This document shows positions 2,967 to 43,566 of a DNA stretch of 64,000 nt, piece after piece. Each line of letters begins with the position of its first letter. Position 1 is the stretch's first letter. The notes below the pieces were generated by a model. The model was not told the DNA's origin, did no database searches, and saw only the letters and a program-made list of their open reading frames with translations. Position numbers and translations under genes: made by a program. The stretch covers positions 9,501 through 73,500 of the forward strand of contig NZ_WLCM01000007.1 in the NCBI RefSeq assembly GCF_013317235.1, read 5' to 3'. This DNA comes from Leisingera sp. ANG59. Lineage in GTDB: Bacteria > Pseudomonadota > Alphaproteobacteria > Rhodobacterales > Rhodobacteraceae.

Positions 2967-3212
2967 ATGCAGACCCGCAACAAGATCCTGGACGATATTT
3001 CGCAGCTGATGACCAATGCGATGGGCGTGGCCCAGGGCGCCAAGGACGAGGCGGAAACCGCGATGAAGAGCATGATCGACCGCTGGCTGGCCGACCGCGA
3101 TTTCGTCACCCGCGAGGAGTTCGACGCGGTGCGCGCGATGGCGCAGAAGGCGCGCGAGGAGAACGAGGCGCTGAAGGCGCGGCTGGACGCGCTGGAGGCG
3201 GCGCAGAAGTGA
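2967..3212 (+). CDS. ubiK: UbiK-type ubiquinone biosynthesis accessory factor (BMFP/YqiC family)
   Basis: An 81-residue protein with an amphipathic N-terminal helix and a charged C-terminal coiled coil rich in Glu, Ala, Arg and Leu, as in the BMFP/YqiC family. UbiK helps the soluble Ubi complex make ubiquinone under aerobic conditions; in Rhodobacteraceae the role is inferred by homology. The ATG follows GGAGAAGA. The gene is monocistronic, divergent from lgt, and followed by a terminator-like hairpin. Confidence 0.82.
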   Translation: MQTRNKILDDISQLMTNAMGVAQGAKDEAETAMKSMIDRWLADRDFVTREEFDAVRAMAQKAREENEALKARLDALEAAQK

Positions 3213-23965: not shown

Positions 23966-24288
23966 ACCGCACCAGTATCTGATTATCACGACAACAGGAT
24001 CTCCCGCCCGGTCTGGGAGGCATTGATATGCCTCAGGACCGGTTGGGCATGGCGCCGCGCTGGCGCGCGGCGCGGTTGCAGCCAGCCCGTTGGGCTGGAG
24101 CGGGTGGCAGCGCAAGATTGAACCTGGAAGAGATTTACTGAGAAGCGCTTCAAGGGCAGGACTGCCCCTGAAGGCGCCATCTGCCGCGTATTGCGGCCTT
24201 CGCCGCGTCAAGGCTGAACCGCGCGTGCCGCGCGGCGGCTGGCGCCGGCCTTGACCCGGATGCGGCCTGAGCCGTGGGTTGCCCCGGC
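23966..24288. other. Convergent intergenic region holding a hairpin block and a structured repeat
   Basis: 323 bp without a gene. The first part (about 24000-24110) is a run of hairpins, for example CCAGCCC / GGGCTGG at 24082-24098 and CCGCGC / GCGCGG just before. The second part (24139-24259) is copy 1 of the 120-nt structured repeat described separately. Confidence 0.7.
24139..24259 (+). ncRNA. Structured repeat copy 1 (candidate RNA element)
   Basis: Begins TGAGAAGCG. A 12-bp stem with one mismatch (CTTCAAGGGCAG / CTGCCCCTGAAG) follows, then a small CCGC/GCGG hairpin. An outer pair GTCAAGG / CCTTGAC then encloses two hairpins (CGCGCG-TGC-CGCGCG and GGC-TGGC-GCC), and the element closes with CCGG. 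Two homologous copies exist at 42555-42672 and, inverted, 35966-36087. Calling it RNA is inference from conserved pairing. Confidence 0.6.
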
Positions 24289-24978
24289 CTAGCGGCGGGA
24301 CAGCGCGTGGTAAATATGGGTGAAGGTGGCAGCGCCCAGGATCGGGATCACCAGGTTCACCAGCGGCACCGACAGCGGCACTGCCATCAGCGTCCCGGCG
24401 GCCCAGATGGTGGTGGAATGGCGGCGGCGCAGCTTTTTGGCCTCAGCCGTGCCGACCCGCCGGGCAGCGGCGAGGGTGAAATATTCCCGGCCCAGCAGGA
24501 AGCCGTTCAGACCCCAGAAGATGAACAGCGCCGCAGGCGGGAACGTCACATAGAGGAACAGCGCCAGGATGTTGGCCGCGATCAGCAGGCCAAGGAAGTT
24601 CACCGTGTCCCTGACTGCATCCCAGAACGGCACCTTTGCCGCCGGGGGCAGGGCGGGATAGTGCTTGTCCTCCACCGCCTGGGCGACTTCCTCCAGGAAC
24701 ATCGAGGTGATGGCGGAGGCCACCGGCACCATCAGGAACACCGACAGGAACAGCATGAAAAACAGCGAGCCGAAGGAGAGCAGGTCGTCGAGCCAGGTGA
24801 CTTTGCCCAGAATGGGCAGCGTGGCCTCCGGGCCGACAAGCCATTGGATCAGCATCAGGAAGCCCGCATAGGCCGCGATCAGCAGGGCGATGGTCAGCCC
24901 CAGCCCCAAGAACAGCACCTTACGGAAGCGCGGGTCGCCGGTCTGGCCGAGGGTTTTGAAAAAGGCGGTGAAGATCAT
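24289..24978 (-). CDS. EI24 domain integral membrane protein (CysZ-like)
   Basis: 229 residues with about four to five membrane segments (near 20-45, 68-95, 120-160 and 188-215). It matches the EI24/CysZ-like family; CysZ of E. coli carries sulfate, but this branch in Rhodobacteraceae has no proven substrate. The start overlaps the nitroreductase stop by 4 bp (ATGA), so the two are one operon. Confidence 0.8.
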   Translation of the reverse strand: MIFTAFFKTLGQTGDPRFRKVLFLGLGLTIALLIAAYAGFLMLIQWLVGPEATLPILGKVTWLDDLLSFGSLFFMLFLSVFLMVPVASAITSMFLEEVAQAVEDKHYPALPPAAKVPFWDAVRDTVNFLGLLIAANILALFLYVTFPPAALFIFWGLNGFLLGREYFTLAAARRVGTAEAKKLRRRHSTTIWAAGTLMAVPLSVPLVNLVIPILGAATFTHIYHALSRR

Positions 24979-32507: not shown

Positions 32508-32655
32508 TTCTCCCCGCCCCGTTACGCCAGAAGGGCGCCCCCCCGGGGCGGGCGCGGACCTCTCGAAGACGTGATGGTGTGGACAGCCCCACGCAGCGGC
32601 ATCGCAATGTGCCATGTTGGAGTTGTTGAACCCAACAGAAAAGGGAGCCATCCAC

Positions 32656-33666
32656 ATGCAGATTACAACATTGGGGATCGATATTGCCAAGTCTGTCTTT
32701 CAACTTCACGGAGTCGATGCAGATGGGAACGTCCTTCTCAGAAAGAAAGTCCGGCGTCGCGCCTTGATTGATGTTCTCACTGAACTCAGTCCCTGCCTGA
32801 TTGGCATGGAGGCCTGCGCGACCGGGCATCACTGGGGACGTGAGATTTCAGCTCTGGGCCACGATGTGCGTCTGGTCCCGCCAGCTTACGTCAAACCTTA
32901 TGTGAAGCGTCAGAAAAACGACATGGCGGATGCCGAGGCGATATGTGAAGCCGTCAATCGACCGAATATGCATTTCGTCGCGATCAAGAGTACCGATCAA
33001 CAGGCGGTTCTGATGCTGCATCGTGCGCGGGATCTTCTGGTGCGACAACGCACGATGCTGATCAATGCGCTTCGTGCCCATCTGGCAGAGTTTGGCATCG
33101 TCGCCGCGCGCGGGCCGCACAAGATACGCGAACTCCTCATCCATCTGCAGGATGACAGTTGCAGCGTCCCCGAGGTCGCCCAATCTGCGCTGCAAAGCCT
33201 GATCCGTCAGATGGATGGCCTGGAAGATGAGATTTCTCGGCTCGATCGAGAGATACGGACCTGGCACCGGCAGAGCGAGGCCAGCCAGAGGTTGGCTACA
33301 ATACCGGGGGTCGGAGTGCTCACCGCAACGGCCTTGGCAGCGACTGTTGGTGATCCGGCCCTCTTCCGATCCGCCCGCCAGTTCGCGGCCTGGCTTGGTC
33401 TGGTGCCACGACAAAACTCATCGGGCGGCAAGGAAAGATTGGGACGCATAACGAAGATGGGGGACGCTTATTTGCGCAAGCTTCTTGTCATTGGCGCAAC
33501 GGCTGTTCTCAGACGAGCGATCCAAGCACAAACACGAACTGGAGAATGGGTGCGTCACCTGCTGGAGAGCAAACCACCACGGTTGGTCAGCGTTGCATTG
33601 GCCAACAAGACCGCCAGGATCGCTTGGGCCATTCTGGCAAAAGGAGAAACTTACCGCACTGCATAA
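32656..33666 (+). CDS. IS110-family transposase (IS1111 subgroup)
   Basis: 336 residues. The N-terminal DEDD RuvC-like domain shows D9 (GIDIAK), E52 (GMEACATG), D89 and D92 (NDMADAEAI). The C-terminal Tnp_2 domain has PGVGVLTATALAA and the serine block NSSGGKERLGRITKMGD (S255/S256), as needed for a serine-dependent recombinase guided by RNA. AAGGGAG precedes the ATG. The gene is intact. Confidence 0.95.
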   Translation: MQITTLGIDIAKSVFQLHGVDADGNVLLRKKVRRRALIDVLTELSPCLIGMEACATGHHWGREISALGHDVRLVPPAYVKPYVKRQKNDMADAEAICEAVNRPNMHFVAIKSTDQQAVLMLHRARDLLVRQRTMLINALRAHLAEFGIVAARGPHKIRELLIHLQDDSCSVPEVAQSALQSLIRQMDGLEDEISRLDREIRTWHRQSEASQRLATIPGVGVLTATALAATVGDPALFRSARQFAAWLGLVPRQNSSGGKERLGRITKMGDAYLRKLLVIGATAVLRRAIQAQTRTGEWVRHLLESKPPRLVSVALANKTARIAWAILAKGETYRTA

Positions 33667-33907
33667 ACTTCGTGCGGCAAGCAAGTTGTCGCAAACAAGG
33701 ATGCAAGAGCAATCGGCGTGATGATGATCAATGCAGCCGCAACCGGAACACCCCGTGGTGTTGTCAGGGCGCCATAGCCCGTTAACGTGATAGGGATCCG
33801 GTCAGCGGACTTCATCAAGGCCAGCGGACAAATGCGCCGCGCAAACAGGCCGGACAAATGACCGCTAGCAATAAGATCTCAATCCTTAAGAAAACTCTTG
33901 CAAAACA
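33667..33907 (+). ncRNA. Candidate guide (bridge/seek) RNA region of the IS element
   Basis: The 240-bp stretch between the transposase stop and the right inverted repeat. In IS1111-type elements the guide RNA is encoded on this side. A direct repeat CGGACAAATG occurs at 33825-33834 and 33851-33860. The RNA itself is inferred from family knowledge; no RNA boundaries can be assigned. Confidence 0.45.
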
Positions 33908-33920
33908 GGGGCTGTCCACA

Positions 33921-34028: not shown

Positions 34029-35948
34029 ATGATGAAGCTGATAATCCGGGTCGTGACGGCGCTGGTGCTGACGGTGGTCGTGCTGGCGGCGCTGGTGCTC
34101 TTGCTGCCGGGCGAGAAGATCGCGCGGCTGGCCGCCGATCAGCTGGAAACCCAGACCGGGCGCAAGCTGGACTTCGGCGGCAAGGTGCGCTTCACCTTCT
34201 GGCCGACGCTGGGGGTGAAGGCCGATGCGGTGACGATCTCCAATGCGGACTGGGCCGGGCCGGAGCCGATGCTGCGGGCCGAACGGCTGACCATCGGGGT
34301 CTCCGCGGCAGAGCTGCTGCAGGGCGATGTGCGGGTCACTGAAGTCTCTGCCATCCTGCCGCATCTGAACCTCGCCACCAACGCGGAGGGCACCGGCAAC
34401 TGGGTCATGGGCGGCACCGGCGCGGCGCCGGGCGGCGCCCCGGGCGGCGGCGGCGGTGCCTTGCCGCTCCGGATCGAGGCGGTGGAGCTGACCGGCGCCT
34501 CGCTGCGTTATGCGGCGCACGGGCAGGAGCCGGTGGTGATGAAGAACATCGACCTCAGCCTGCTGTGGCCGGACCCGGCCGGCACCGCGAGCGCCAAGGC
34601 CACGCTGCGCCCGGCGGGGGAGCCGGTGGATGTGGACGCCGAGATCGGCACCTTTGCGGGTTTCCTGGCCGGTGAGGTGTCCTCGGTCGGGGCCACCGTT
34701 ACGGCACCGGGCGGCAAGGGCCGGTTTGACGGCCACGCCGATATCAACGGCGAGGCCAGCGGGCGGCTGACCTTCGGCGCCGAAGACGCCTTGCAGACCG
34801 GTGTGGCGCTCGGGGTGTTCCTGCCCGATGCGCTGGCGCAGAAGGCGGTGTTCGGCGCCGATGTGACCTATACCGCCGACGGGCGCCTGTCGATGCGGGA
34901 CCTGGCGCTGGAGCTGGGCGCCAACCGGCTGACCGGCGCGGCGGATGTGGAATTCAATGACCGTCCCAGCATCACCGCGCAGCTGCAGGGCGGGGCGCTG
35001 GATTTCTCCCGCTATGCTGCCGGGCACGGTGGTGCCGGCAGCGGCGGACCGGCACGCCGCGGCTGGCCGGAGGGGGTGATCGACGCCTCGGCGCTGGGGC
35101 TGGCGGACGCGGCGGTGGACCTGGCGTTTGACAGCCTTCGCACCGGCGGCCTGACCCTTGGCGCCAGCAAGCTGAACCTGACGGTGGAGCGCAGCCGCGC
35201 GGTGCTGAATTTCCTGCCTGCGGCGATGTTCGGCGGCCAGGTGCAGGGGCAGGTGGTCGCCAACAACCGCAGCGGGCTGTCGGTGGGCGGCAATCTGACC
35301 TTCACCGGCATCCGGCTGGAGCGTGCGCTGGGCGAAACCGCGGGATATGACCGGCTGAACGGCGAGGCGCTGGGCGCGCTGGAGTTCCTCGGCTCCGGCA
35401 ATTCGGTCGCGGCCATCATGCGCTCGCTCAGCGGCAAGGGCTGGCTGGAGGCGGGCAAGGGGTTCTTCACCGGCTTCGACCTGGAGCAGCTGATGCGCTC
35501 GGGCGGCAACGGCGGCAGCACCGTGTTCGACCAGCTGACCGCCAGCTACACGATCGAGGGCGGCAACCTGGGCAACGAGGACCTGCTGGTGCTGCTCAAG
35601 GGCTTCCGGGCTGATGGCAAGGGCAGGATCGGGCTGGGGGCGCGCGACCTTGATTACCTGTTCACGCCGCAGATCGTGCGGGCGGGCCGGGATCAGGTGC
35701 TGACCATCCCGGTGCGGATCACCGGCCCTTGGGAGGACCCGGACATCCGCCCGGACTTCGGCCAGGCGCTGCAGACCCGGATCGACGATGTCGAGCAGGA
35801 GGCCAAGGACCGGGTGCGCCAGAAGCTGGCCGAGGAGCTGAACCTGGAAACGGAGATCGCGCCGGAACAGGACATCAACGATGTGCTGAAGCAGCGCATC
35901 GAGCAGGAGGCCCGCGACCAGCTGCTGAAGCTCCTGGGCGGCGACTGA
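34029..35948 (+). CDS. AsmA family protein
   Basis: 639 residues. One N-terminal membrane helix (about 4-25) anchors a large periplasmic domain with the AsmA-type start (AARLAADQLETQTGRKLDFGGKVRFTFWPTLGVKA). AsmA-like proteins are bridge-like lipid carriers between inner and outer membrane in current models. A Gly/Pro-rich loop (APGGAPGGGGGA) lies near 140. A second ATG follows directly at 34032 with better spacing to GGAG. It ends in front of an inverted copy of the structured repeat. Confidence 0.85.
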   Translation: MMKLIIRVVTALVLTVVVLAALVLLLPGEKIARLAADQLETQTGRKLDFGGKVRFTFWPTLGVKADAVTISNADWAGPEPMLRAERLTIGVSAAELLQGDVRVTEVSAILPHLNLATNAEGTGNWVMGGTGAAPGGAPGGGGGALPLRIEAVELTGASLRYAAHGQEPVVMKNIDLSLLWPDPAGTASAKATLRPAGEPVDVDAEIGTFAGFLAGEVSSVGATVTAPGGKGRFDGHADINGEASGRLTFGAEDALQTGVALGVFLPDALAQKAVFGADVTYTADGRLSMRDLALELGANRLTGAADVEFNDRPSITAQLQGGALDFSRYAAGHGGAGSGGPARRGWPEGVIDASALGLADAAVDLAFDSLRTGGLTLGASKLNLTVERSRAVLNFLPAAMFGGQVQGQVVANNRSGLSVGGNLTFTGIRLERALGETAGYDRLNGEALGALEFLGSGNSVAAIMRSLSGKGWLEAGKGFFTGFDLEQLMRSGGNGGSTVFDQLTASYTIEGGNLGNEDLLVLLKGFRADGKGRIGLGARDLDYLFTPQIVRAGRDQVLTIPVRITGPWEDPDIRPDFGQALQTRIDDVEQEAKDRVRQKLAEELNLETEIAPEQDINDVLKQRIEQEARDQLLKLLGGD

Positions 35949-35965
35949 CGCCCCCCACAGCCGGA

Positions 35966-36087
35966 GGCCGGGTCAAGGAAGGCCGCAGGCCTCCGGGCAA
36001 CGCCCGGCGTGTCTTTGACGCGGCTGCAGGCGTCTTACACTGGGGAACGCGCATCTAAGGGCAGACTTGTACTTAGATCGCTTCTCA
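35966..36087 (-). ncRNA. Structured repeat copy 2 (candidate RNA element, minus strand)
   Basis: Read on the minus strand it begins TGAGAAGCG, then ATCTAAG / CTTAGAT, an outer GTCAA / TTGAC pair enclosing GCCGGGC-GTT-GCCCGG and GGCC-TGC-GGCC, and ends CCGG. These stems pair as in the other two copies but with different bases. It follows the terminator of the phosphohexomutase gene. Confidence 0.6.
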
Positions 36088-36090
36088 GCC

Positions 36091-36120
36091 AAAGAAAAAG
36101 CGCCCGCCAAAGGCGGGCGC
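36091..36120 (-). terminator. Rho-independent terminator after the phosphohexomutase gene
   Basis: 9-bp stem GCGCCCGCC / GGCGGGCGC with a three-base loop, then TTTTTCTTT on the minus strand. Confidence 0.85.
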
Positions 36121-42456: not shown

Positions 42457-42519
42457 CCGGGCGGGAGCGCTCCCGCCTGTTCCTGCACATCTTTTGGATG
42501 TGCGTCACAGTTGGGAGCG

Positions 42520-42554
42520 GCGCTGTGCTGCGCACAGCGCGGGTGCTCTTTTTC
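42520..42554 (+). terminator. Terminator-like hairpin after the SseB gene
   Basis: 9-bp stem GCGCTGTGC / GCACAGCGC, loop TGC, then TCTTTTTCT a few bases later. Confidence 0.6.
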
Positions 42555-42672
42555 TGAGAAGCGTTCAAGAGCAGTTTTGCCCTTGAAGCGCCATATCGAG
42601 GGTGTATCCGCCTTTGACCGCCTCAAGGGGGAATCGCGCGTTGCGCGGCTGCTGGCGCAGCCCCTGATCCGG
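42555..42672 (+). ncRNA. Structured repeat copy 3 (candidate RNA element)
   Basis: Begins TGAGAAGCG directly after a terminator-like T run. Stem TTCAAG / CTTGAA follows. The outer pair CTCAAGGGG / CCCCTGA encloses CGCGC-GTT-GCGCG and GCTGC-TGG-CGCAGC, and it ends CCGG. Homologous to 24139-24259 and 35966-36087 with compensating base changes. Confidence 0.6.
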
Positions 42673-42690
42673 CCAAAGACGGGGGCTCGG

Positions 42691-43566
42691 TTACTCCGCC
42701 GCTTCCAGCTTGTCCTGAGTGCGGGTGTCGAAATCGCTGGCATCGTGGCGTTCATGCAGCTGCATGGCCGGATCGCCGGAGGTACGGTTCACCATGCGGC
42801 CGCGCTGCACCGCCGGGCGGGCGTCGATGGCCTTGGCCCAGCGGACCACGTTTTTGTAGCTGCCGGCATCCAGGAATTCGGCGGCATCGCCATAGTTGCG
42901 GCCCAGAACCAGCTGGCCGTACCAGGGCCAGATGGCGATGTCGGCAATGGTGTATTCGCTGCCTGCGACGAACTCATGCTCCGCCAGCTGCCGGTCCAGC
43001 ACATCCAGCTGGCGCTTGGTTTCCATCGTGAAACGGTCGATCGGGTACTGGAATTTCTCCGGCGCATAGGCATAGAAATGACCGAAGCCGCCGCCCAGGT
43101 AGGGCGCGCTGCCCATCTGCCAGAACAGCCAGTTCAGGGTCTCGGTGCGGGCCGCGCCCTCCTTGGGCAGGAAGGCGCCGAACTTCTCCGCCAGATGCAG
43201 CAGGATCGAACCGCTCTCGAACACCCGCACCGGCTCCGCGCCGCTGCGGTCCAGGAGCGCCGGGATCTTGGAGTTCGGGTTCACCTCGACAAAGCCGGAG
43301 CCGAACTGGTCGCCGTCGCCGATCCTGATCAGCCAGGCGTCATATTCGGCACCCGCGTGGCCCGCCGCCAGCAGCTCCTCGAACATCACGGTGATCTTCA
43401 CCCCGTTCGGCGTCGCCAGGGAGTAGAGCTGGAAGGGATGCTTGCCCGCGGGCAGCTCCTTGTCGTGGGTGGCACCGGCGATGGGGCGGTTGATGGAGGC
43501 AAACTCGCCGCCGTTCGCCTGTTCCCATTTCCAGACTTTCGGCGGGGTATAGGGGGTGTCGCTCAT
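42691..43566 (-). CDS. yghU: Glutathione-dependent disulfide-bond oxidoreductase YghU
   Basis: 291 residues of the nu-class glutathione transferase YghU/YfcG group: PYTPPKVWKWEQANGG at the N-terminus, INRPIAGATHDKELP, the thioredoxin-like domain with FVEVNPNSKIPALLD and ESGSILLHLAE, and the helical C-terminal domain. Reduces disulfides with glutathione. The start at 43566 matches homologues. Confidence 0.93.
   Translation of the reverse strand: MSDTPYTPPKVWKWEQANGGEFASINRPIAGATHDKELPAGKHPFQLYSLATPNGVKITVMFEELLAAGHAGAEYDAWLIRIGDGDQFGSGFVEVNPNSKIPALLDRSGAEPVRVFESGSILLHLAEKFGAFLPKEGAARTETLNWLFWQMGSAPYLGGGFGHFYAYAPEKFQYPIDRFTMETKRQLDVLDRQLAEHEFVAGSEYTIADIAIWPWYGQLVLGRNYGDAAEFLDAGSYKNVVRWAKAIDARPAVQRGRMVNRTSGDPAMQLHERHDASDFDTRTQDKLEAAE

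Follow-up and report, generated by a model that had tools for sequence, protein, structure and literature searches.

What is the folded repeat that recurs between convergent genes of Leisingera sp. ANG59, and does its pairing reflect an RNA that folds or the DNA itself? The window analyzed here is a stretch of 64,000 bases (contig NZ_WLCM01000007.1, positions 9,501 to 73,500), and it holds three copies of a folded repeat of about 130 bases, each in a gap between convergent genes. An earlier note on this DNA had located the three copies, had read the compensating changes in their stems as selection on RNA structure and had listed a mobile palindromic repeat among its alternatives. The copies were found in the sequence at those places and on those strands.

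Results

Three copies in convergent gaps of the window

The copies were scored with R1, a covariance model built from eight copies of the own genome; the E-values of our models are rough. Copy A lies at 24138..24269 on the plus strand (113.6 bits, E 4.8e-22) and consists of a lead (24138-24144), a hairpin H1 (24145-24177), a linker (24178-24192) and an outer helix P1 (24193-24214 with 24248-24269) that encloses the hairpins P2 (24219-24235) and P3 (24236-24247). It stands between a DUF1467 gene and a CysZ-like gene, and the latter, a convergent neighbor of the CysZ/EI24 family (24289..24978, minus strand), has its 3' end 20 bases from the end of P1. Copy B (42554..42682, plus strand, 114.4 bits, E 3.3e-22), with its lead at 42554-42560, H1 at 42561-42591, linker at 42592-42607, P1 at 42608-42629 with 42661-42682, P2 at 42634-42648 and P3 at 42649-42660, separates an SseB gene from a convergent glutathione S-transferase (GST) gene (42691..43566, minus strand). 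Copy C is on the minus strand (35958..36088, 99.7 bits, E 6.3e-19), between a phosphomannomutase gene and a convergent gene of the AsmA family (34029..35948, plus strand); its lead is at 36082-36088, H1 at 36049-36081, the linker at 36033-36048, P1 at 36012-36032 with 35958-35979, P2 at 35991-36007 and P3 at 35980-35990. The outer helix around two hairpins described in the earlier note is thus present, while the 3' limit given there was too short, P1 running on to 24269, 42682 and 35958.

The window contains the common start noted for the copies, TGAGAAGCG, at the three copies and nowhere else (0.67 occurrences expected; three were reached in 2 of 100 shuffles), and the base preceding it is C in all three. 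Gene calls bore out that all three copies lie between convergent genes. Only 13 of the 63 neighboring gene pairs of the window are convergent, so that the probability of finding all three copies in such gaps by chance is 0.007; these calls come from our own gene caller, which was trained on the window and miscalls genes in other genera. A terminator with a T run had been described before two of the copies, and a hairpin scan of the three gaps flagged hairpins before the element at two of them: immediately upstream of copy B, hairpins that resemble a terminator with a T run and belong to the gene on its left (42461..42546, plus strand), and an intrinsic-terminator-like hairpin with a T run, belonging to the phosphomannomutase gene, directly before copy C (36100..36120, minus strand). 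None was flagged before copy A. By eye, modules like the hairpins upstream of copy B precede many other copies. Within the element, P2 of copy C was the single hairpin flagged in the three gaps, on the opposite strand and with a weak tail, so that the element does not itself show the GC-rich hairpin with an immediately adjoining T tract that defines an intrinsic terminator.

Anatomy and covariation

Single-copy folding energies are mildly unusual (z of -3.2, -1.6 and -1.9 for the three window copies), and the convincing evidence for the fold is comparative. It comes from an alignment of 69 copies, A8, for which 79 had been prepared and ten left out beforehand, five with failed anchors and five with an outer P1 score of at most 3; the omission of the latter five favors the P1 counts, both of mutual information and of covariation. 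An earlier alignment, A3, was discarded since two of its copies had been taken on the wrong strand. In A8, the consensus starts with CTGAGAAGCG and the order of parts is an unpaired lead CTGAGAA, H1, the linker, and then P1 around P2 and P3, which together form a cloverleaf. H1 has 13 pairs and a bulged purine near its base, the linker comprises about 16 bases around TCGAGTGTG, and P1, of about 20 pairs, is interrupted by a 2x2 internal loop (CS / CC) and encloses ACAAG, P2 and P3. The unpaired or linking parts, namely lead, linker and P1 flanks, are conserved across genera and loci.

Nested helices, including outer P1 pairs, were recovered de novo from mutual information with no structure assumed, and outer P1 complementarity reached 6.79 in the 77 of 79 copies that could be parsed, while shuffling of the partners gave 3.68 (sd 0.15). 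In A8, 89.7% of the cells pair and the covariation score is 0.427, compared with 0.124 in shuffled and at most 0.089 in slid alignments. The compensating base changes pointed out previously are therefore real: two-sided changes occur in 34 of the 42 pairs, and none of 500 shuffles reached the observed values. Covarying pairs beyond chance, a mark of conserved structured RNA, are thus present.

Two local peculiarities were also seen. In one copy of the own genome (L051 / L045, C14:85589-85801), a 9-base tandem repeat, CTCAATGCC, is expanded many times in the 3' arm of H1. By eye, copies of other genera (e.g. L269, L281, L286, L129) are preceded by a shared module that lies some 50-90 bases ahead of the lead and consists of a hairpin of the GCGCTTCCGCGCGC type followed by GGCGACGC.

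Wobble pairs do not indicate an RNA fold

An RNA helix tolerates G-U and not A-C, whereas in DNA both are mismatches. In A8, G-U was found 67 times and A-C 83 times (p 0.22), and the balance was similar in all 79 prepared copies (80 vs 97), in a self-alignment of H1 (10 vs 13) and in the R1-fitted alignment A6 (46 vs 48). The R1-fitted alignment A5 gave a raw count of 102 G-U vs 56 A-C, in which 49 of the 102 G-U fell in two columns judged to be misaligned (the H1 bulge and the P2 tip), leaving 53:51 without them. The ratio varies between helices, from 17:6 in P2 to 6:20 in P1b (A8). The copies had been found with an RNA-type model, which if anything favors G-U.

Both positive controls behaved as expected of RNA. 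RNase P, with the Rfam model as reference structure, showed 95 G-U vs 7 A-C over 100 pairs in 21 genomes of the genus, one genus being covered by the control and many by A8. A Fisher test of the element against the variable pairs of RNase P (53:7) gave 2e-9, a value that is too small and overstates certainty, as the counts run over related sequences. The best hairpin within the 75 bases upstream of the copies yielded 19:4, while H1 treated by the same procedure yielded 5:7 (60 upstream and 84 H1 sequences passed the threshold). Since G-U is no commoner than A-C on either strand and both controls show a G-U excess, the selection on RNA structure proposed in the earlier note is not supported.

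An element transcribed from both sides would find wobbles unfavorable on both strands. Yet the ten rows in which the right-hand gene is codirectional (one of them without a called left-hand gene) were equally unbiased, 12:10, so that transcription of both strands is not the sole cause of the missing bias. A minus-strand RNA from the 3' UTR of the right-hand gene, considered from stop-codon spacing and locus C, was not adopted in view of the 67:83 of the larger set. The minimum free energies of the two strands do not differ over the whole element (p 0.49). H1 folds better on the plus strand, with 26 G-U in RNAfold on plus vs 14 on minus, and this figure runs against strand equality; strand folding energies were not used as evidence because loops and closing rules differ between strands and folding itself seeks G-U.

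Another feature of P1 is the sequence GANTC, which we take to be a CcrM site. It is present in both arms in 24 of the 53 rows not labeled Leisingera, where shuffling predicts 0.2% of rows, and in three of these 24 the center of the site does not pair. None of the 16 Leisingera-labeled rows (the label is our own) has it in both arms. Its occurrence in both arms could be due to shared ancestry of the arm sequence.

Copy number and taxonomic spread

Covariance model searches found about 21 copies in the own genome and many in relatives. The 5.33 Mb assembly has 21 R1 matches at E < 0.001, and a similar set was obtained with R2, a model of 69 diverse copies that includes the outer helix. Each of the 21 genomes of the genus has between 11 and 25 R1 matches. 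Among 61 relatives, R1 matched in 25, comprising all 21 of the genus, 4 of 16 other family members and 0 of 24 outside the family. In a family sample, 49 of 345 genomes had at least one match, a count that takes in the own genome and a congener and corresponds to 48 of 344 genera. With R2, 11 of the 385 genomes of a class sample matched, nine of them outside the family; five of these nine align to the cloverleaf alone, and among the remaining four at least G490 is almost devoid of H1. Copy numbers from these two samples are floors, since ten candidates were scored per genome in the family sample and eight in the class sample.

An exact pattern scan of public genomes returned 108 stretches, from Leisingera, Phaeobacter, Pseudophaeobacter, Tritonibacter, Epibacterium, Shimia, Pelagimonas, Sulfitobacter, Roseivivax, Thalassococcus and others. 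Four records with unrelated names (Nocardia, Streptomyces, Bifidobacterium and a Thermoplasmata MAG) also contain pattern stretches (L114, L117, L137 and L176); the model was run on the first three of these stretches and gave no match. Full-length copies were seen in L121 and L154, from records named Nocardioides marinus DP1N28-1, an actinobacterial name that may be wrong. Among PLSDB plasmids, five from Leisingera matched copy L029 used as query, and none matched L314 or L282.

Placement behind genes

In the own genome, the right-hand gene is on the opposite strand at 20 of 21 copies, and 15 of the 20 copies with both neighbors called lie in convergent gaps. Named public records agree, with an opposite-strand right-hand gene in 61 of the 69 cases that have a called one (73 copies). 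By eye, the right-hand neighbors are diverse. The copies thus occur as dispersed extragenic hairpin repeats at gene ends. Some copies of other genera stand before a codirectional gene, L261, L271 and L281 behind a betaine-aldehyde dehydrogenase gene and L279 behind a choline-sulfatase gene.

This placement is what a bidirectional RNA element would lead one to expect, in which both convergent transcripts need the hairpins for termination, 3'-end protection or collision. Besides the convergence itself, such an element would be in line with the distance of the right-hand gene, which ends at most 40 bases from the R1 match in 16 of the 20 own copies where it is on the opposite strand, and with the simple scan, which flags no terminator of the right-hand gene in gaps A and B. 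We nevertheless regard it as doubtful: the codirectional rows are equally without bias, neither strand has a strong T tract after H1, and some copies (such as L037 and L231) lie, by eye, between two terminators.

History of the loci

Orthologous loci were located through neighboring genes in the 21 genus genomes. A model match behind the AsmA gene (locus C) was present in all 21, whereas the element was found at locus A in 18 genomes (two weak matches) and at locus B in 6 (one weak match), with a decayed remnant by eye in L232. Where locus B has no match, the gap measures 68-82 bases in 12 of 15 genomes; it is the whole gap that differs between genomes at this locus. At locus C the arms of H1 change jointly between species (ATCTAAG/CTTAGAT, ATGTAAG/CTTACAT, ATGCAAG/CTTGCAT), and at locus A there are partial copies and internal deletions between short repeats. 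Retention extends beyond the genus: the copy beside a glycerol kinase gene on its left, L031, has a counterpart (L264) in another genus with the same two neighbors, whose proteins are 82% (left) and 77% (right) identical.

Pairwise identity among the 13 own copies compared does not exceed 71%, which gives no sign of recent movement. At the loci compared across the genus genomes, no empty site with a target duplication, as expected of a MITE-type transposable repeat, could be cleanly made out. From this low identity and the retention at orthologous loci we infer that the copies are old and mainly inherited, with some decay by deletion.

The repeat could also be a relic that is largely neutral, with quasi-palindrome correction (template switching) and not selection on structure maintaining the complementarity of its arms. 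This reading would account for several of these observations. It predicts equal G-U and A-C, as observed, and fits the partial copies and deletions of locus A as well as the diversity of neighboring genes. The conservation of lead, linker and P1 flanks and the persistence at locus C and at the glycerol kinase locus in two genera speak against it, and we consider it rather unlikely.

Mobile elements near the repeat

By eye, no transposase adjoins the copies of the own genome. This genome has three matches to Y1 transposases; the two that were typed are of the IS200 type, with REP_Tyr_transpos below cut-off, and the best R2 score beside the three (L382-L384) was 6.5 bits (E 0.31), which is no match. 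No linkage to RAYT was found at these three matches.

Sequences of the IS110 type were met repeatedly. At locus C, an IS110-type sequence adjoins the border of lead and H1 in L250 and L251, and an insertion inside H1 is common to L247, L252 and L258. The window itself has an IS110-family element at 32576-33920, not inserted in a copy of the repeat, with its transposase at 32647-33666 (NCBIfam transpos_IS110, 361 bits) and about 250 noncoding bases at its 3' side; by eye, inverted repeats (TGTGGACAGCCCC / GGGGCTGTCCACA) lie close to the ends of the element.

Outside the family, two IMG/VR contigs, L358 and L327, have an IS110-family transposase with the cloverleaf core about 30 and 90 bases behind it, and a weak IS110-type match is near L314. 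Genome G707 carries three near-identical copies within a larger repeated unit that has a weak IS110-type match (E 9e-4). A reading of the cloverleaf as a constant component of IS110 elements was discarded, as L367-L371 have no core; relatives of the L358 element (48-49% identical) have none in the 330 bases downstream. The small contig L358 also carries, beside its IS110 transposase and cloverleaf core, an Rfam RT-17 RNA (3070-3167) by a reverse transcriptase. In IMG/VR the full exact pattern had no match, and the core pattern was found in 46 contigs; by eye, both inner hairpins can form in 13 of these, which represent 11 distinct sequences. Two IMG/VR contigs, L320 (14353 bases) and L334 (14408 bases), have the core exactly at their end, and their size and large protein may point to a gene transfer agent cluster.

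A bolder proposal is to be taken as tentative: the copies would be sites selected for their DNA fold (a hairpin plus a cloverleaf, in many genera with paired GANTC in the outer helix) and recognized by some enzyme, and the core would be a promiscuous mobile DNA module ranging from Rhodobacteraceae to contigs of 30% GC and lying behind IS transposases.

Comparison with known systems

Intergenic palindromic repeats of about 100 bases are known in Alphaproteobacteria, such as RIME of rhizobia and Bru-RS of Brucella. The repeat is like them in being intergenic and palindromic and in its host class. The attC core sites are RYYYAAC and GTTRRRY. The attC-type motifs in the parts of PMC8632094 consulted, e.g. 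OTH-22-1, are a parallel in being covarying folds found comparatively that act as DNA; they carry RYYYAAC.

With REP and BIME sequences the repeat shares that they are short extragenic imperfect palindromes at gene ends which can form single-strand hairpins. Unlike the REPs detected in PMC2817692, all of which, in the sections consulted, carry a GT(A/G)G head, it has no such head followed by a GC-rich imperfect palindrome, and it has about 21 copies where those sections give usually over 100. It further departs from REP/RAYT systems in its two-domain structure and in that, instead of a RAYT gene flanked by copies, the own genome has three Y1 matches with no copy beside them. According to the consulted text of PMC11187229, REPs of Pseudomonas aeruginosa are a target of ISPa11, an IS1111-family element. 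What ties the repeat to IS110/IS1111 elements is the IS110-type sequence at the border of locus C and the core behind the transposases of L358 and L327; the own-genome copies, by eye, have no adjoining transposase.

In agreement with the earlier note, which had not recognized the motif, Rfam 15 gave no match at gathering score in the whole window. When seven copy-bearing loci were scanned permissively, 11 matches below threshold appeared, of which the best was to the upstream module: a SorX-like module, below gathering score, lies directly upstream of L031. Matches to the SorX and SorY sRNAs (RF02784, RF02651) cover this upstream module and not the repeat. Elsewhere in the own genome, SorX (RF02784) scores above gathering at C29:36869-36941 and C1:345144-345224; there are weaker matches too, one of them, at C25:65182-65247, directly upstream of a copy. 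A single-strand RNA element, either a 3'-UTR-derived sRNA or a structure of the mRNA 3' end, is improbable: it would suit the strong covariation, the SorX/SorY-like module directly upstream of one copy and the copies that stand, in three other genera, between a betaine-aldehyde dehydrogenase gene and a codirectional gene, but the repeat has no G-U excess on either strand, unlike RNase P and the upstream hairpins, and no Rfam match.

Literature searches turned up no description of the family; PMC4809877, PMC2864571, PMC8632094 and PMC2267715 were consulted by term, and the last contains none of the terms. The consulted parts of PMC8632094 report other Rhodobacterales motifs and state that many lower-ranking and mobile or repeat motifs were binned, and the element may be among the latter. 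The repeat is probably a family of its own and is absent from the libraries searched.

Discussion

We observed directly the architecture of the repeat, its Watson-Crick covariation, its placement at gene ends, its inheritance at fixed loci and the lack of an RNA-type wobble bias. They are best explained by an old interspersed extragenic palindromic repeat that is constrained at the level of DNA, a reading to which we assign a probability of roughly 0.5 and in which the earlier suggestion of a mobile palindromic repeat finds support. According to it, the pairing would be kept because the DNA itself folds, either as a single-stranded hairpin or as a cruciform recognized by a protein. The copies would have spread long ago by means of a trans-acting recombinase or transposase, their landing sites being tolerated positions behind stop codons, and would have been inherited since. 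It is tempting to speculate that their present role may be that of a DNA-structure site between converging transcription units, in the manner of REP/BIME; on this analogy, the best reading is that the repeat works like a REP/BIME without being one. Against this explanation stand the lack of recent movement, of a clean empty site and of a linked transposase; an element kept so long in place could also have a role as RNA, and a processed 3'-end RNA, one option of the earlier note, may yet exist.

Covariation commonly counts as strong evidence that an RNA is functional; the repeat provides a controlled counter-case, in which strong covariation comes without an RNA-type wobble bias. Should it hold, it would be a warning for RNA-discovery pipelines, and if the reading as sites selected for a DNA fold is true, the wobble test would quite generally allow DNA folds to be distinguished from RNA folds in comparative data. 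For these bacteria, the family offers old extragenic repeats at defined orthologous loci where gain, decay and insertion can be traced, and the counter-case, if it holds, would open a way to study processes that depend on DNA structure between convergent genes, in a group of ecological importance.
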